NCBI GenBank assembly: GCA_026391295.1
Contig: JAPLDS010000046.1
Location: forward strand, 55,001-101,165
Length of the DNA: 46,165 nucleotides
Reading direction: 5' to 3'
DNA from: Bacteroidia bacterium
GTDB taxonomy: Bacteria > Bacteroidota > Bacteroidia > Bacteroidales > Prolixibacteraceae
The position numbers and the translations under genes are program-made. Within the stretch, counting starts at the first letter, position 1. Each line of letters begins with the position of its first letter. A model generated the notes under the pieces. The model made no database searches. It saw nothing but the letters and a program-made list of their open reading frames with translations, and was not told the origin of the DNA. This document shows, one piece after another, positions 4,356 to 12,682 of the stretch.

Positions 4356-5633
4356 TTATTTAATCGAATACTTCGCCTTATATTTCTCAAATAATTGCGA
4401 TTGCTTATTGTCAAGATTGATCTCGCGACCTTGAATAAAGGCTTTGGTGACCTTGCTAGTTTTCATGTCGAGTAGATCTCCTTCACTGATTACAATATTT
4501 GCATCTTTCCCCGCCACTAGGGTACCTGTAATCTGATCGATCCCTAAGATCTTAGCTGCATTAAGGGTTAGTGCAGAGAGAGCCTCTTCTTTTGTTAATC
4601 CGTAGGCCGCCATCGTCCCTGCCTGGAAGGGGAGGTCGCGCTGGCGCCAATAGCCAAAACCCTGATCCAAACAGATCGTAAATAGCACACCGGCCTTCTG
4701 AAGCACTGCTCCTGTCTTATACGGCTGGTCTATATCATCGTCTTCTGCAGAGGGCAGGCTATGCGGTTGCGCCAAGATCACCGCTACCTTATTCTCCTTA
4801 AGAACCTCGGGGATCAAATAACTATCAGAGCCACCTACAACGACTAATTTAAATCCAAATTCGCGTGCGAAATCAATCGCTACCATCATCTCACGGACTA
4901 GATCGCAATGAACGAAAAGCGATTGGCTTGAATTAAACAACCCTTTAACGGATTCGAACTTTAAATTTGTTTTGGTATGCACAGGCTCCATGTTATAAGC
5001 TTTCGCCTCTCTGAAAAAATTCCGAATCTCCTCAATAGTCTCGAGTCCCGACTTGACCTGGTCGGTTCCTCCTGGTCGGTTAAGTAGAACTGGGAGATTT
5101 AAATGTATTCCATTATCCATCTTATACGCCGCATCTTCCCAGTTCCAAGCATCGAGCTGCACCACTGATGAGGTGCCGCTCAGATAGCCACCCGACGGAA
5201 CAATATGTGCCAACAAAATTCCATTGCTGCGCACTGTATTGATAACTTTGCTGTCTGTATTGTACGCCACTAACGAATGAATATTTGGATTCATCGTGCC
5301 AAGCTCTGCAAAATCGGCTGTAGCGCGAACGGCGCTAACTTCAATCAGTCCAAGGTTCGTGCTGGCCGCAATAAGTCCAGGATAAAGTTGCTTGCCCTGC
5401 GCATTAATGACCTGGGCATTTGCTGGAGCATCATACGCCCCACTCCCTACCGATACGATTTTCCCCTTATCAAAAAAGAGATATCCATCTTCAATAATCA
5501 GACCATTGCCCAGATGCATGGTTCCATTTTTAATCAATACCGGAGTGCTCTGCGCGGCCATTGGGTGCATCGTCTCCTGTGCCTTCGCTACGAAAGAGAT
5601 CACTATTAAAAGGATAAAGAATATTTTTCGCAT
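4356..5633 (-). CDS. Amidohydrolase-superfamily protein lacking the HxH metal motif
   Basis: This is a 425-residue exported protein (signal peptide 1-18, ending VAKAQ). The composite beta-sandwich and barrel of imidazolonepropionase/prolidase-like amidohydrolases are recognisable from VLIKNGTMHLGNG at the start and TLNAAKILGIDQITGTLVAGKDANIVI at the end. Where active members have PGLIDxHxH, this one reads PGLIAASTNLG (residues 85-95), so the first metal-binding pair is lost. It lies 76 bases downstream of the 1008-residue amidohydrolase on the same strand and is probably co-transcribed. I infer a non-hydrolytic partner subunit, or an enzyme with altered metal binding. The family assignment is firm; activity is doubtful. 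Confidence 0.88.
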   Translation of the reverse strand: MRKIFFILLIVISFVAKAQETMHPMAAQSTPVLIKNGTMHLGNGLIIEDGYLFFDKGKIVSVGSGAYDAPANAQVINAQGKQLYPGLIAASTNLGLIEVSAVRATADFAELGTMNPNIHSLVAYNTDSKVINTVRSNGILLAHIVPSGGYLSGTSSVVQLDAWNWEDAAYKMDNGIHLNLPVLLNRPGGTDQVKSGLETIEEIRNFFREAKAYNMEPVHTKTNLKFESVKGLFNSSQSLFVHCDLVREMMVAIDFAREFGFKLVVVGGSDSYLIPEVLKENKVAVILAQPHSLPSAEDDDIDQPYKTGAVLQKAGVLFTICLDQGFGYWRQRDLPFQAGTMAAYGLTKEEALSALTLNAAKILGIDQITGTLVAGKDANIVISEGDLLDMKTSKVTKAFIQGREINLDNKQSQLFEKYKAKYSIK

Positions 5634-5709
5634 AAGTTAGTTTTCAAAAAGGAATAAACTGAATTGTGATGAACTTATTAATTTAAATCCGTTGATGGTA
5701 TTTGAGCGA

Positions 5710-8700
5710 CTACTCTTGTGTAGACGATCTTGAAGATTCTCTGTTTTCAAGTCTGTCGAGTAAGCTAGTCCCATCGTGACAACCCTCCTCGCAGTAATTC
5801 CTCACTGCAAAGGATGGTGCTGCCGGAACAGTTTTCTCTCCATCTTTTTTTGCACTGATCATCTTCTGAAGCAGACGGGTGCGCTCAGTAAGAATTTGCT
5901 CTCGTAATTTTTTGTCTCTCTCTCGATCAAAATAGATGACTCCATCGACCATGGTTAGCTCAGATTTTGCATAAATACTCAATGGATGATCACTCCAAAG
6001 GACTAAATCAGCGTCTTTCCCAACTTTAATACTTCCAGTCCGATCGGCAACATGTAACATCTTAGCCGGATTCAACGTGACCATTTTTAACGCCTCTTGT
6101 TCATCCATATTGGCATACTTTACACTCTTGGCTGCTTCCTGGTTCAGTCTTCTAGCCATCTCCGCGTCATCACTGTTCAGCGCTACATTAACGCCGTTTT
6201 TCTGCATTAAGAAAGCATTTTGAGGTATCGCATCCACCACTTCCATCTTATAATTCCACCAATCGCTAAAGGTTGAAGCGTTTGATCCATGAGCATTCAT
6301 TTTATCGGCAACTTTATATCCCTCCAAAATATGGGTGAAGGTGTTAACCGTAAAATTAAACCGATCGGCAATTTTAATCAGAGAGTTAATCTCACTCTGA
6401 ACATAGGAATGACAGGTGATAAATCGTTTTTTATTTAGGATCTCCGATAGCGCTTCTAACTCTAGATCTTTTCGTTTTGTGGGTCCCAGCTTTTGGTATT
6501 CACGAGCACGAGTGAACGCATCGGCAAGCACCTCTTCAACACCCATTCGGGTATCTGGAAAGCGAGTACTGCTCGGATAATAGGAACGTTTTACATTCTC
6601 TCCTAAGGCAAATTTTATAAACGGATCCCAGTTGCTGAATTTCATCTGTTCGGCATTTGCCCCCCATCGTAATTTGAGCAGTTGCGTCTGACCACCAATC
6701 GTGTTGCAGCTTCCATGCAGAATATGACTTCCAGTAACCCCACCGCTAAGTTGACGATAGATGTTTACGTCATCGGGATTAATGACGTCCGTAATTCTTG
6801 ATTCTGCTGTTACGCTTTGCGAACACTCGTTAACCTCACCACTGACTGCGATATGTGAGTGTTCATCAATAATTCCGGCAGACAAATGTTTGCCTGTCCC
6901 ATCAATAATACGGGCCTTACCTTCCGAAAGGTTTTTCCCAATCGCCGCAATCTTTCCTTTTCGGATTAGCACATCTGTACCTTCTAGTTTTCCTCCCTTT
7001 TCATTGGTCCAAACTGTTGCATTTTTTATTAAAATAGTCTCTTGTGAAGGGATTTCCTGGCTGCCATATCCGCCAAATGGAAAGGTAACTACCCCCTCGT
7101 TTTTAAATGGAGAATCTGCTTTTTTTGTTTTTGCTGTGTCAGCATCCAGCGATAGCTCTGAGCTTTTTGTGGCCACCCAAATCGCTGATTTCCCCGTTGA
7201 GAATAGTGCTGTTCCATTCCATCTCTCCTCGCTCATTACTCCGCTAAGCTTAACCTTAAACAGAGAATCTTTTTTGGCAGAAAGGGATAATCTGACTAGC
7301 CGGTCGTTCATCTCAAGCTCACTCTTTAAGGTGTCTTTCGCAATCAACAGTATCTTGGGTTTTGCTGCATCACCTTTCAACTCCATTCGGTAGGTCTCGT
7401 TGTTCAGTGTCAAGGTATAAATCCCATTTCGGTCTTTCCAGCCTTCATCTTTTACTACATATCTATTTCCTTGAACCCAGTTTTGAAAGATCACGGTTTT
7501 CTCGGCAAAAACAGGAGCTGAGGTGATTAGGAAATTTGCAAGTTTACCTTTCTCAAGACTTCCTACTTGATCATACATTTTTAATAAGTTCGCCGGAGTC
7601 TTAGTCAGCGCATCTAGAGCTGCCTGTTCGCTTAGACCGGCTTTTATCGCTTTACGCAGATTAGGGATAAAGGAGCTCAGCTCTTTTAAACCGGTTGAGG
7701 TAAGGGCGAACGGTATCGTTGCTTTTTCGAATGCTGCTGGATTTAGTGGGGCCATCTCCCAATGTTTTAGATCGGCCAGTGAGACAAAGCGCGAGTCGAT
7801 AGGATCGTCCACATCCATGGCAAGTGGGAAGTTAAGTGGAAGTATAAAAGGAGCATTGGTCGCTTTTATCTCGGCGATACGTTGATACTCGTTTCCACCC
7901 CCTTTAACGATAAATTGAACTCCAAATTCATCTCCGACTTTATCGGCTCGCAGATCGTTCCACTTATCATTTCCTTCGAAAATCTGAGGTAATGCGCGAT
8001 TGTCGAGAAAGGCTTGCAAGGATAAGTTGATCCCTTCCTCTGCTGGTTTTGTTTGATACCATTGCGCATCGAGGAAGTTTTGACGCAAAAGTGCAATCGC
8101 ACCCATCAAGGAGGTTGGATAATCTTGTGTACTGGAGCCCTTGTCGAACGAGAAGTTTGCCGAAGCTTTTTCTTTGAGCATCACCTTATTCTCTTTTTCA
8201 AGGCCAAGCGTTACAAACGTACCAGTGCCTCTTGATATCCCATCCATCTGATGGCTAAGCACCGCACCAATTCCAATAGCCCGTAAATCTTTTGCTTTTG
8301 ATGGGTTGACTTTAAATAAATCGGAACTTACATTCTCAGATCGAATGGCTTGATTCCATCCAAATGCTCCTTTGGTGGATGAAGTCATCTGTCTCCCACG
8401 ATCTCCGGAACTTCCTTCTGTCTTATTCGCTGAAACCCCATAATCCGAGTAGATATCAATAAATGAAGGATAGATATACTTCCCTTTACAGTCAATAACC
8501 ACGGCATCTTTAGGAATCGGCAGTGCTGATCCAATATTTTCAATCTTGCCATGCCTAATAATCATCGAAGCATCTTGCAAGGTGGTCTTAGAATCCTTGA
8601 TGATTGTTGCATGGATAAATGCGGTGCATCCTTCGCGGGGATTTGCGACGTCATTAAGCGGGAAAGTCTCTTGTCCAGCTAATTGAAATGATATGGTAAG

Positions 8701-8736
8701 GATTGCACTAACAAGAATAATGGCTAATCTGTTCAT
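5710..8736 (-). CDS. Double-domain secreted amidohydrolase, one degenerate and one intact barrel
   Basis: This 1008-residue exported protein (signal peptide 1-21) contains two amidohydrolase modules in tandem. The first (about 35-425) ends in a typical TKTPANLLKMYDQVGSLEKGKLANFLI segment but has PSFIDIYSDYG at 90-100 in place of the HxH motif. A linker beta domain (about 430-565) follows. The second module (about 567-960) is intact: GIIDEHSHIA (HSH at 626-628), further ligands in ITCHSYVQSE and THILEGYKV, and the Asp in NSDDAEMARR. The tail carries CEEGCH and a Ser/Arg-rich end. The relatives are imidazolonepropionase-like and peptidase-like amidohydrolases. It is the first gene of a two-gene operon with the degenerate paralogue at 4356-5633. 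The substrate is unknown; a cyclic amide or dipeptide in the periplasm is plausible. Confidence 0.9.
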   Translation of the reverse strand: MNRLAIILVSAILTISFQLAGQETFPLNDVANPREGCTAFIHATIIKDSKTTLQDASMIIRHGKIENIGSALPIPKDAVVIDCKGKYIYPSFIDIYSDYGVSANKTEGSSGDRGRQMTSSTKGAFGWNQAIRSENVSSDLFKVNPSKAKDLRAIGIGAVLSHQMDGISRGTGTFVTLGLEKENKVMLKEKASANFSFDKGSSTQDYPTSLMGAIALLRQNFLDAQWYQTKPAEEGINLSLQAFLDNRALPQIFEGNDKWNDLRADKVGDEFGVQFIVKGGGNEYQRIAEIKATNAPFILPLNFPLAMDVDDPIDSRFVSLADLKHWEMAPLNPAAFEKATIPFALTSTGLKELSSFIPNLRKAIKAGLSEQAALDALTKTPANLLKMYDQVGSLEKGKLANFLITSAPVFAEKTVIFQNWVQGNRYVVKDEGWKDRNGIYTLTLNNETYRMELKGDAAKPKILLIAKDTLKSELEMNDRLVRLSLSAKKDSLFKVKLSGVMSEERWNGTALFSTGKSAIWVATKSSELSLDADTAKTKKADSPFKNEGVVTFPFGGYGSQEIPSQETILIKNATVWTNEKGGKLEGTDVLIRKGKIAAIGKNLSEGKARIIDGTGKHLSAGIIDEHSHIAVSGEVNECSQSVTAESRITDVINPDDVNIYRQLSGGVTGSHILHGSCNTIGGQTQLLKLRWGANAEQMKFSNWDPFIKFALGENVKRSYYPSSTRFPDTRMGVEEVLADAFTRAREYQKLGPTKRKDLELEALSEILNKKRFITCHSYVQSEINSLIKIADRFNFTVNTFTHILEGYKVADKMNAHGSNASTFSDWWNYKMEVVDAIPQNAFLMQKNGVNVALNSDDAEMARRLNQEAAKSVKYANMDEQEALKMVTLNPAKMLHVADRTGSIKVGKDADLVLWSDHPLSIYAKSELTMVDGVIYFDRERDKKLREQILTERTRLLQKMISAKKDGEKTVPAAPSFAVRNYCEEGCHDGTSLLDRLENRESSRSSTQE

Positions 8737-8956
8737 TGAAGGGGAATTTAAACGATGGATTATAGAATGCTAAAATAACAATTCATTTGATCACTCTGCA
8801 AAACTTTTTTCTGCGAGATGCGGCTTTGTTAATTTTAAAAGAACAAGTTTTGTTGATTGGTTAGGACAACTGTTTTTTGTCTTGAGGGCAGTTAATCTAA
8901 ATTTATTAATATTGGGTAAAATTAAAACCAATCTTAAACTTGTTTTTAACTCACAG

Positions 8957-11260
8957 ATGCGCCCTATGAAATCTGATCGCGTTGATGGAACGGCTAATGT
9001 TTCGCTTTCTTCAAAAAAGCTTGACTACTCGCTAACTGGGAAGAATACCAAAAGAGCGGTGGAGTTAGGACTTGCTGAAGCCGATTGGTATCAAACTCCC
9101 GTGCCGCGTGCCACTATGCGTGAATTATTAACACGTAAAAATGGGCCTGCTATTCGGGATACACTCTTACTTATCGTTGTCTTAGTCAGCACCGCGGTTA
9201 CCACGGTAGTTTTCTGGGGTACCTGGTGGGCTGTGATTTCTTATCTTATTTACGCTGTATTTTACGGCACTAGCTCTGATTCAAGATGGCATGAGTGTGG
9301 TCATGGGACCGCTTTCAAAACAAACTGGATGAATGATGCTTTGTACGAGGTTGCATCTTTTATGGTTATGCGCGAATCGGTGGTCTGGCGCTGGAGTCAT
9401 AACCGTCACCATAGCGATACTATAATTGTTGGACGCGATCCAGAGATTCAAATTCCACGTCCACCAAACTTGTTGATGCTCGCACTCTCCCTTTTAAATT
9501 TGCCCGGCTACAAAGCTTATTATCCAGGTCTGATTCGTCATGCACTGGGCAAGGTTACTGGGGCAGAGAGGACTTTTGTCCCGGAGACTGAATTTGGAAA
9601 GATATTCAGAAATGCACGTATAATAGTTCTCATTTACACCTTAGTAATTTTATCCGCCATCGTGTTAAAGACTTGGATTCCTGTTTTCCTATTTATCTTG
9701 CCTCAATTTTTTGGCACCTGGTTGATGATTTTGCACAATACTCCGCAACATGCTGGTCTTGCTGAAAATGTATTAGATCATCGTCTGAATTGTCGCACCG
9801 TTTATATGAACCCCATAAGTCGGTTTATTTATTGGAACATGAACTACCATGTCGAGCATCACATGTTTCCGCTCGTTCCCTACCATGCGCTTCCTAAACT
9901 TCATAAATTGGTAAAAGACGATTGTCCACCTGTCTATCCATCTATTTACTCCGCTTGGAAGGAGATCCTGCCAACGATAATTAAGCAAGTGAAAGACCCT
10001 TCGTACTGCGTGAAACGAAAACTGCCTGAATCTAAAGGGCGAATTGACGAGCGCATATTACGCACCGATTGCCTCCCGGATGCCGACGGATGGATAGAGG
10101 TTACTGCTTCAGCTCGTCTGATTAATGAAGATGTGATCCGCTTTGATTCCGGGAAGAAGACGTTTGCGATACACCGCGATAACGAGGGAAAACTTTATGC
10201 TACCGATGGTATTTGCACCCATGGAAATACCCATTTAAGTGAAGGTCTTGTAAAAGGCAAGATCATCGAATGCCCGAAACACAACGGCCGATTTAATCTG
10301 GCTGATGGTTCCCCAGCTCGAGCCCCAATTTGTGCTGGATTGGCCACTTATCCGGTGGAAGAGCGAAACGGCTCTATCTGGATTAATCTGAAAAGAGCAG
10401 GGGGCGACGGAGCGCGTTCTGAGAAAAAATACGAGCTCGTTGTTATTAGCAATTTAAGTGTCTCTACGTTTATTAAAGAGCTTGTTTTGGAGCCAATTGA
10501 TGTCAAAGAAAAAATGGTGTTTACTCCTGGCGACTATATGCAGATTGATATTCCAAGTTACGAGGAGATCGGTTTTCACGATTTTGAGATTCCTGAGCCC
10601 TATGCTTCCGTCTGGAATCGTCAAGGTATTTTCAATCTTACAAGCAAAAATGCAGACTTGGGACGTCGCAATAATTACTCTCTTGCAAGCAATTGTGTAA
10701 CCGAGCGAACGCTTAAATTTAATGTCCGTCTTGCCACTCCGCCTCCTGGTCAAGATTGCCCTCCAGGTATTGGGTCTAGCTATATTTTTAATTTAAAGCC
10801 AGGCGATCGGGTTTCTGCCATTGGGTCGTTTGGCGATTTTCATATCAAGCCAACTCAGAAAGAGATGGTCTACATCGGTGGTGGGGCAGGAATGGCTCCA
10901 ATACGTGGGCACCTTGCACACCTTTTTGAAAATGAGTCAACAAACCGTAAAGTTAGCTATTGGTATGGCTCACGCTCGAAACAAGAGATTTTCTGCGACG
11001 ATTATTTTGAAAATCTAGCAGATCAGCATTCTAATTTTAGTTTTAAGATTGCCCTCTCAGATCCGCTGACAGAAGATAATTGGAATGGCGATAAAGGGTT
11101 TATTCATGAAGTTGTATTTGAAAACTACCTAAAGAATCATCCCACCCCTAAATCCATAGAGTTCTATCTCTGCGGTCCACCAATGATGATTAAAGCCTGT
11201 CTTAAAATGCTCGCCGGCCTAGGTGTATCCGAAGAACAGATTGCCTTCGATGAGTTTTAA
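8957..11260 (+). CDS. Fatty-acid-desaturase / Rieske / NqrF-like reductase fusion
   Basis: The protein has 767 residues in three fused domains. Residues about 40-350 are a membrane di-iron desaturase/hydroxylase with all histidine boxes: HECGH (112-116), HNRHH (148-152) and HVEHH (298-302), plus hydrophobic spans. Residues about 375-480 are a Rieske-type ferredoxin: CTH (420-422) and CPKH (439-442). Residues about 490-767 match the FAD and NAD(P)H modules of NqrF (Na+-NQR subunit F), with NYSLAS, GGGAGMAP (641-648), YWYGSRS and LCGPPM, but without NqrF's own plant-type ferredoxin domain. Electrons can be inferred to flow NADH, FAD, [2Fe-2S], di-iron site in one chain. Separate MocD/MocE-type proteins supply the first two domains elsewhere. 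ATG 8957 is preferred to TTG 8882; ATG 8966 is also possible. The gene stands alone before a strong terminator. Confidence 0.93.
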   Translation: MRPMKSDRVDGTANVSLSSKKLDYSLTGKNTKRAVELGLAEADWYQTPVPRATMRELLTRKNGPAIRDTLLLIVVLVSTAVTTVVFWGTWWAVISYLIYAVFYGTSSDSRWHECGHGTAFKTNWMNDALYEVASFMVMRESVVWRWSHNRHHSDTIIVGRDPEIQIPRPPNLLMLALSLLNLPGYKAYYPGLIRHALGKVTGAERTFVPETEFGKIFRNARIIVLIYTLVILSAIVLKTWIPVFLFILPQFFGTWLMILHNTPQHAGLAENVLDHRLNCRTVYMNPISRFIYWNMNYHVEHHMFPLVPYHALPKLHKLVKDDCPPVYPSIYSAWKEILPTIIKQVKDPSYCVKRKLPESKGRIDERILRTDCLPDADGWIEVTASARLINEDVIRFDSGKKTFAIHRDNEGKLYATDGICTHGNTHLSEGLVKGKIIECPKHNGRFNLADGSPARAPICAGLATYPVEERNGSIWINLKRAGGDGARSEKKYELVVISNLSVSTFIKELVLEPIDVKEKMVFTPGDYMQIDIPSYEEIGFHDFEIPEPYASVWNRQGIFNLTSKNADLGRRNNYSLASNCVTERTLKFNVRLATPPPGQDCPPGIGSSYIFNLKPGDRVSAIGSFGDFHIKPTQKEMVYIGGGAGMAPIRGHLAHLFENESTNRKVSYWYGSRSKQEIFCDDYFENLADQHSNFSFKIALSDPLTEDNWNGDKGFIHEVVFENYLKNHPTPKSIEFYLCGPPMMIKACLKMLAGLGVSEEQIAFDEF

Positions 11261-11292
11261 TTAGTGGTCTACTCTGCTGGTCTTATAATAAG

Positions 11293-11333
11293 AAAGGGTT
11301 TAGGAAGGTAAAACTTCTTAAACCCTTTTTTTT
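11293..11333 (+). terminator. Rho-independent terminator after the fusion gene
   Basis: A 15-bp stem (11293-11307 with 11314-11328, one G-T pair) closes a 6-base loop and is followed by a T run at 11329-11333. The stem starts 33 bases after the stop codon of the desaturase fusion. It is the clearest intrinsic terminator in the window. Confidence 0.9.
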
Positions 11334-12060: not shown

Positions 12061-12390
12061 ATGCACATATCAATTACAGGATTAAAACCAAAAGGTTTGT
12101 GGGGATTTATTCGATTTTGGACTTTAGCCATCCCCTCATTTGGTGAGGCAAAATCGGCCAAAGGGAATCTTTATAGTGCAGTCAAAAAAATCAACGGCTA
12201 TAATTGTACTTTGTCGGCTTGGGAAAGTCGTGAACTCATGCTGGCTTTTATGAAAAATGGTGTTCATCTTAAGGCAATGAAAGCATTTACATCCATAGCA
12301 ACCGGTCGAACATATGGGTATGAATCTGATATAATTCCAACTTGGGAAGAGGCCTATTCACTACTAGAATCAAAAGGAAAAAATTATTAA
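12061..12390 (+). CDS. Small ABM/DUF3291-like dimeric alpha-beta barrel protein
   Basis: This 109-residue cytoplasmic protein has no signal peptide. The segment TLSAWESRELMLAFMKNGVHLKAMKAF (about residues 55-81) resembles the helix-strand core of antibiotic-biosynthesis-monooxygenase-like or DUF3291 and spheroidene-monooxygenase-like domains, where the aromatic WES stretch is typical. Such small barrels dimerise and are often of unknown substrate. It starts 33 bases after the thioredoxin-like gene and ends 10 bases before a small membrane protein gene, so the three are likely co-transcribed. The fold call is tentative. Confidence 0.75.
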   Translation: MHISITGLKPKGLWGFIRFWTLAIPSFGEAKSAKGNLYSAVKKINGYNCTLSAWESRELMLAFMKNGVHLKAMKAFTSIATGRTYGYESDIIPTWEEAYSLLESKGKNY

Positions 12391-12400
12391 AACTTGCACT

Positions 12401-12682
12401 ATGAAAACATCATTTAATAAGTTTATTTATATTGGGTTTGTCATTTTTGGAATTTATGAATTGGTCGCACGGCACTCTCCAGGTGATGCAGCAACATATT
12501 TGGGAATCGCTTTAGCATTTGATCCTTTTGATCAAACACAGTCATGGGAAAAAAGGCCAACTTGGCAAAAGGCAGTTTTAGTAATTCACCTAGCGATTGT
12601 TCTTGGTCTGTTTGGTTATATGATTGGAACTGCATCAGGTGATTTTAAGAAAGGAATCATGGATGGCTGGCAAGGGAAATAA
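12401..12682 (+). CDS. Small two-helix membrane protein, function unknown
   Basis: The protein has 93 residues with two hydrophobic segments, near residues 8-22 (FIYIGFVIFGIYELV) and 58-76 (AVLVIHLAIVLGLFGYMIG). They are separated by a polar, acidic and aromatic loop (LAFDPFDQTQSWEKRPTWQKA). I do not recognise a named family with certainty, although similar short proteins are common in Bacteroidota. It follows the ABM-like gene by 10 bases and is the last gene in the run before a convergent lipoprotein gene. Confidence 0.75.
   Translation: MKTSFNKFIYIGFVIFGIYELVARHSPGDAATYLGIALAFDPFDQTQSWEKRPTWQKAVLVIHLAIVLGLFGYMIGTASGDFKKGIMDGWQGK

Follow-up and report, generated by a model that had tools for sequence, protein, structure and literature searches.

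A single gene in a 46,165-nucleotide stretch of DNA from a Bacteroidia bacterium (contig JAPLDS010000046.1; the whole stretch is called the window) joins, from N to C terminus, a membrane di-iron domain (PF00487), a Rieske [2Fe-2S] domain and an NqrF-type FAD/NAD reductase. This locus raises the question of what an oxygenase-like domain carrying its own electron supply would oxidize. We propose that the fusion is a self-sufficient version of the three-component MocDEF oxygenase of rhizobia, namely an O-demethylase driven by NADH and acting on methyl-ether sugars or cyclitols, and hold this reading to be modestly probable. Its electron path, self-sufficiency, O-demethylation and substrate are inferred from the anatomy and the ancestry of the protein. 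The preliminary description of this DNA had read three histidine boxes, a Rieske ligand pair and an NqrF-like reductase in one 767-residue frame, and all of these were confirmed, the boxes and the Rieske pair base by base.

Architecture and recurrence of the fusion

The fusion was defined as one uninterrupted open reading frame (ORF) of at least 700 residues with all signatures. A scan of genome contigs, from which the best 80 of 577 relatives were kept, together with loci added from whole-genome searches, gave 85 such loci (some of them repeat fetches) and 76 distinct proteins, the window's included. They are found in isolate genomes as well as in metagenome-assembled genomes (MAGs), and by record title or taxonomy they belong to Bacteroidota, Verrucomicrobiota, Acidobacteriota, Ignavibacteriota and Gemmatimonadota. 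Since the same uninterrupted frame recurs in 76 proteins of several phyla, neither an assembly join nor chance accounts for it. The adjacency of mocD and mocE in rhizobia could favor such a join, and a frameshift or join had been named as a concern in the preliminary description; with this recurrence the possibility is negligible. The spacing between domains is nearly constant among the fusions. In 57 of 75 proteins (L060 was set aside by its pattern) exactly 117 residues separate the HxEHH box from the first Rieske cysteine, and all 75 end in phenylalanine, which is also invariant in the alignment of 55 fusions. The longest version of the window's ORF, 792 residues, begins with a TTG at 8882, which makes the true start of the fusion uncertain; Y24 is the first invariant column of the alignment.

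In the N-terminal domain, the FA_desaturase family matches residues 89-332 with 131.8 bits (cut-off 29.7; Pfam matches were counted at E 0.001). The non-histidine letters of the three boxes vary among the 55 aligned fusions. The QH pair is invariant also in a 55-row set of 8 rhizobial MocD and 47 fusions and is possibly a further metal ligand; in that set long invariant stretches around the boxes are common to MocD and the fusions. Hydrophobic stretches lie at about 63-103 and 213-261. A structure model of residues 21-368 reached a predicted template modelling score (pTM) of 0.84, folding better than the full-length protein, which has a pTM of 0.65 and a predicted local distance difference test score of 77.6. 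In a fold search the catalytic domain gave two matches at E up to 0.001, both of them chains of a chloroplast motor complex, with TM-scores of 0.57-0.58 by query length.

The Rieske ligands C420, H422, C439 and H442 are invariant in all 55 aligned fusions, and the best-scoring NCBIfam Rieske family for this domain is the MocE family, TIGR02377. For the C-terminal part, NAD_binding_1 matches residues 640-748 with 63.9 bits (cut-off 22). A domain search, advised earlier, thus recovered FA_desaturase, Rieske and NAD_binding_1, and PF00970 had no match in the 767-residue protein at E 0.001. The NCBIfam nqrF model TIGR01941 matches with 331.2 bits (cut-off 295), residues 490-767 corresponding to model positions 128-403 of 405. 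Positions 1-127, the N-terminal plant-type [2Fe-2S] part that we take to be NqrF's own ferredoxin, are unmatched, in agreement with the earlier claim of an NqrF reductase lacking that ferredoxin. By sequence the PDB matches are FAD domains of NqrF (E 1.5e-83), and by fold the NqrF FAD domain 7qu5 has a TM-score of 0.93 by target length. The NYS triplet presumably occupies the position of the flavin-binding xYS motif of NqrF.

The fusion has a patchy distribution, and movement between lineages would be in keeping with this. A search of 61 related genomes found it in 5, all of them from the window's genus, which supplied 18 of the 61. A wider phylum sample of 296 genomes yielded 2 cases, one being the window's own, and a phylum sample of 288 genomes around an Akkermansiaceae genome yielded 22, with that central genome among them; in one of the 22, G412, the fusion is broken over two frames. 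A pattern scan of viral contigs found no relative, and among 770 matching plasmid records none had one place covering 80% of the query.

Ancestry of the three parts

For the first two parts, the nearest relatives found are in rhizobia, where mocD and mocE are separate genes. The catalytic part is 54.0% identical to Phyllobacterium MocD (locus L168) over 337 residues and the Rieske part 50.5% identical to MocE of the same locus over 101 residues, which bears out the likeness to MocD and MocE noted earlier. In a smaller catalytic tree with 40 of the 76 fusions, these form one clade with a support of 96 by the Shimodaira-Hasegawa-like approximate likelihood ratio test (SH-aLRT), joined with support 97 to 16 rhizobial MocD. 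Three desaturase-Rieske fusions without a reductase (L160, L165 and L176, of 488, 475 and 535 residues, in genomes G475 and G614) were also placed in this tree: the L160/L165 pair branches before the group of fusions and MocD, and L176 earlier still. No MocF match was found at these three loci. When all 76 fusions are put into the catalytic tree, they remain together on one side of a split with SH-aLRT 94, just under the starred level.

In the reductase tree a single branch with support 100 separates the 76 fused reductases from 51 NqrF. Rooting with phenol-hydroxylase and XylA reductases, whose branches are long, put the root among the fusions; the fused reductase may be either nested in NqrF or its sister. 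With the true NqrF of Na+-NQR the fused reductase shares the FAD/NAD domain (49.8% identity to Tritonibacter NqrF), while it differs in the missing N-terminal ferredoxin, in a host genome where no NqrB was found and in its place on the opposite side of that branch. Neither NqrB nor a separate NqrF was found in the window genome (97.5% complete) and four fusion-bearing congeners. Among 32 other fusion genomes a full-length NqrF was present in 9 and not found in 23, one of which (G367) has a weaker partial match. Recent recruitment from a resident NQR was considered and is not supported, given that no NqrB or separate NqrF was found in the fusion-bearing members of the genus and given the one-branch separation from the 51 NqrF.

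Compared with the MocDEF system, the fusion has in common the two identities given above, the invariant boxes and surroundings of a sugar or cyclitol type. It differs in being one chain where MocDEF has three separate genes, and in its NqrF-type reductase where MocF is a flavoprotein of the glutathione-reductase type; MocF and the fused reductase have no real match. Judged from these sequences, the Rieske part is the native partner of the catalytic part, and the reductase is the part that was exchanged. The preliminary description had a recruited NqrF whose ferredoxin was replaced by a Rieske domain: the NqrF-type module stands, while it is MocF that appears to have been replaced, the Rieske domain being native to MocD. 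The simplest history is a single joining of MocD, MocE and an NqrF-type reductase; the trees are compatible with such a single origin rather than proof of it.

Proposed reaction, alternatives and related systems

In the proposed reaction, NADH would reduce the FAD of the C-terminal NqrF-type domain, from which electrons would go singly to the middle Rieske cluster and on to the di-iron site in the membrane domain at the N terminus. This site would activate O2 and hydroxylate a C-H bond, the likeliest target being an O-methyl group on a methylated sugar or cyclitol. The hydroxylated methyl ether would then split into formaldehyde and the free hydroxyl compound, and glycan degraders with access to oxygen would gain the use of the demethylated compound. 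Three COX1-family matches in the host genome, one of which we assume may be a nitric-oxide reductase, make the use of oxygen by the host plausible.

O-demethylation is proposed because of the reaction of MocD, the one-carbon genes at mocD loci and a xylose isomerase gene next to mocDEF in Pseudomonas syringae. MocD is reported to convert 3-O-methyl-scyllo-inosamine to scyllo-inosamine (PMC2593844), and mocDEF belong to rhizopine catabolism, with a gene set that matches the Phyllobacterium locus (PMC10107442). The order at that locus is a Gfo/Idh/MocA gene, a substrate-binding protein, a pyridoxal-phosphate-dependent (MocR-type) regulator, the desaturase, MocE, an FAD-dependent oxidoreductase, a PanB-like hydroxymethyltransferase gene and purU; the moc labels other than MocE are ours, the oxidoreductase being called mocF by its place. 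Of 13 Mesorhizobium loci 11 have a PanB-like gene, as do L168-L170, and PurU occurs in L168, L088 and L089; these are genes at rhizobial mocD loci that could process one-carbon units. In P. syringae, mocDEF lie directly beside a second xylose isomerase gene (PMC5132102), which we, and not that paper, take as a hint of methylated pentoses.

Neighbor profiles were counted within 4 kb of 74 distinct fusion loci, many of which look like sugar loci. A xylose-isomerase-like TIM-barrel gene is present at 41 of them, at 38 within 400 bases, and an AraC regulator at 30. Less frequent are a URO-D/MtaA-like gene (12/74, L035 being one of the loci noted), aldose 1-epimerase (11/74), a Gfo/Idh/MocA gene (6/74) and an amidohydrolase of the window's type (4/74). 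The main TIM-barrel representative had no Pfam match; against the PDB its profile matched AsbF (E 1e-6) and, weakly, IolE (E 0.01). A sequence search of the PDB gave no match for a second cluster of TIM barrels (cluster 11), which aligns with the main one (cluster 1) at 99.4% probability. Among 83 further neighbors scanned were six alpha-L-fucosidases, four alpha-L-rhamnosidases, three sulfatases and six Gfo/Idh/MocA genes. A DUF1638 gene lies two places downstream of the fusion at L035, and together with the URO-D/MtaA-like genes it may point to methyl-group metabolism.

The preliminary description spoke of a hydroxylase or desaturase acting on a lipid, a carotenoid or something else; this now appears too open, with the catalytic part next to MocD and loci of a sugar type. 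A self-sufficient enzyme that takes a lipid, carotenoid or other hydrophobic substrate from the bilayer would agree with PF00487 being the fatty acid desaturase family, with the hydrophobic stretches and with a weak DesB match of 28.7 bits. However, the DesB cut-off of 500 is so far above this score that the protein is not a DesB member, the genome's other desaturase (L002) reaches at best 21.8% identity in a local match and has a very long branch in the tree, and no lipid or carotenoid family was prominent among the part of the neighbors that was scanned. We consider a hydrophobic substrate improbable. An oxygenase of the MocD kind that serves sugar or cyclitol breakdown without being an O-demethylase carries more weight, while still being unlikely. 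It could hydroxylate a ring or side chain, N-demethylate, or oxidize an aromatic or amide-bearing compound. Aromatic oxidation has been suggested as another idea for the function of mocDEF (PMC5132102), and creatininase-like and aldo/keto reductase genes stand beside the fusion in six loci of the Winogradskyella group (L022, L023, L024, L026, L044 and L083) and in L058, an Akkermansiaceae MAG. Amidohydrolase pairs at L057, L066, L080 and in the window might also be cited, yet they are only 25-34% identical and the link is weak; moreover, the reaction reported for MocD strips an O-methyl group (PMC2593844). That the reductase part serves a quinone or an NQR-like partner rather than the di-iron site would suit the TIGR01941 match above its cut-off and the full-length NqrF in 9 of 32 fusion genomes. 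With no separate full-length NqrF found in the other 23, no NqrB found in the window genome and its four fusion-bearing congeners, and invariant di-iron and Rieske ligands, this is highly improbable.

Several points weigh against the proposed O-demethylase. The Rieske domain scores 105.7 bits with TIGR02377, under the cut-off of 136.15. The trees are quick ones with SH-aLRT support only and with long-branch warnings. The low pTM of the full-length model means that docking and proximity of the three centers are not readable from it. At 13 of the 74 fusion loci no profile matched within 4 kb. The control loci have a TIM barrel at 0 of 51, AraC at 0 of 51 and URO-D at 1 of 51, yet these are 50 NqrF loci plus one two-part fusion locus (L165), they are shorter than the fusion loci (mean 3.9 vs 10.8 kb), and the neighbor profiles had been built on the very fusion loci that were counted. 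In Verrucomicrobiota, sulfatases and fucosidases are abundant in any case. Searches of the fusion loci for PanB-like and PurU-like genes had no match, so no gene handling one-carbon units is linked to the fusion, and MocF-like genes gave only two weak matches there (L044 and L056, 27-28% identity). Neither a TIM barrel nor AraC is among the five nearest scanned neighbors of the window gene, and the main TIM-barrel profile had no match in the window genome in a search made without a positive control. The creatininase-like, aldo/keto reductase and amidohydrolase neighbors may indicate nitrogen-bearing substrates.

Membrane di-iron oxygenases are hard to study, their electron donors often being separate or unknown, and a natural single chain into which NADH feeds at a defined point would lend itself well to studies of electron transfer into a di-iron site. 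The xylene monooxygenase XylM and XylA (L174) pairs a membrane di-iron oxygenase, XylM, with a 2Fe-2S reductase that matches the fused reductase at 30.9%; it differs in having two genes, a 2Fe-2S ferredoxin domain in the reductase and an aromatic substrate. A membrane di-iron oxygenase, a ferredoxin and a reductase in one polypeptide are known from ferr_ferrR_AlkB, a three-domain alkane monooxygenase (Nie 2014 and Williams 2021, as told in PMC8918992), where ferredoxin and reductase are N-terminal to AlkB, in contrast to the C-terminal Rieske and NqrF-type parts on a MocD-type domain here. According to work cited in the same 2022 review on the partners of AlkB, ferredoxin fusions of desaturases had not been found (PMC8918992), and our literature search of open-licence papers found no description of a MocD-Rieske-NqrF fusion.

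The reaction type itself has a parallel in porphyran-degrading Flavobacteriia, where a P450 O-demethylates 6-O-methyl-D-galactose, turning a sugar methyl ether into alcohol and formaldehyde; this unrelated heme enzyme uses a separate ferredoxin and ferredoxin reductase (PMC10033563). If the substrate proposal is true, the fusion would offer a second, non-heme route for the removal of sugar methyl ethers besides that P450. More tentatively, the fusions may form a class of non-heme O-demethylases, widespread and so far undescribed, in which one protein, built of MocD-MocE and an NqrF-type reductase, uses NADH to act on methyl-ether sugars and cyclitols. Verrucomicrobiota, Bacteroidota and other glycan degraders could then use methylated deoxysugars or cyclitols.

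Features of the window and further observations

Table 1. Positions in the window of the fusion gene, its domains and motifs, and adjacent features (invariance refers to the 55 aligned fusions)
Feature	Positions	Strand	Remarks
Fusion gene	8957..11260	+	767 residues without stop (translation, ORF list)
MocD-like catalytic domain, residues 21-357	9017..10027	+	identity to MocD, Pfam, model
Histidine box 1, HECGH, residues 112-116	9290..9304	+	both His invariant 55/55
Histidine box 2, HNRHH, residues 148-152	9398..9412	+	three His invariant 55/55
QH pair, residues 264-265	9746..9751	+	invariant 55/55
Histidine box 3, HVEHH, residues 298-302	9848..9862	+	three His invariant 55/55
MocE-like Rieske [2Fe-2S] domain, residues 379-466	10091..10354	+	Pfam 60.3 bits (cut-off 20.3)
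Rieske ligands C420, H422, C439 and H442 in CTH (10214-10222) and CPKH (10271-10282)	10214..10282	+	invariant 55/55
NqrF-type FAD/NADH reductase, residues 490-767	10424..11257	+	without NqrF's own ferredoxin part
NYS, N573 Y574 S575	10673..10681	+	invariant 55/55; aligns with AYS of an NqrF
CGPP motif of the NAD half, residues 739-742	11171..11182	+	invariant 55/55; aligns with CGPP of an NqrF
Terminator-like hairpin and T run, directly 3' of the fusion gene	11290..11331	+	18 pairs
Divergent neighbor, 1008-residue amidohydrolase	5710..8736	-	Amidohydro_1 88.4 bits; candidate member of the system only

The hairpin behind the fusion gene is to be read against the number of terminator-like sites, 2 being found and 2.6 expected in shuffles. 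Closest to the gene stand amidohydrolases, a redoxin and two small ORFs with no family assigned. Two amidohydrolase genes (4356-8736, minus strand) are divergent from the fusion. A partnership with them was considered and rejected: the pairs at L057, L066 and L080 follow the fusion, but with the low identity given above. About 4.6 to 28 kb downstream of the fusion gene lie a sulfatase, a sodium:solute symporter, GH31 and GH2.

Neither of the two small ORFs (12061-12390 and 12401-12682) has a Pfam match; they follow the fusion in the same order in L005, which is the window locus, and in L006 and L007. Elsewhere in the same genome, a desaturase-like gene (G000:C81, L003/L004) shows two matches of one family in adjacent 226-residue frames. 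A protein encoded on a plasmid of Xanthomonas citri (L171:5135-6922) has an NqrF-like reductase part that covers 99% of the reductase query at 39.2% identity; its gene stands among those of a TonB receptor, PepSY and sigma factors and not in an NQR operon. A fusion relative broken over frames lies on a 3.1-kb contig titled Verminephrobacter (L079), a betaproteobacterium, and could be contamination. At L081 a 499-residue frame from about 6001 ends just past the Rieske domain, the NqrF part being gone; it is perhaps a natural loss of the reductase, the reverse of the fusion step.

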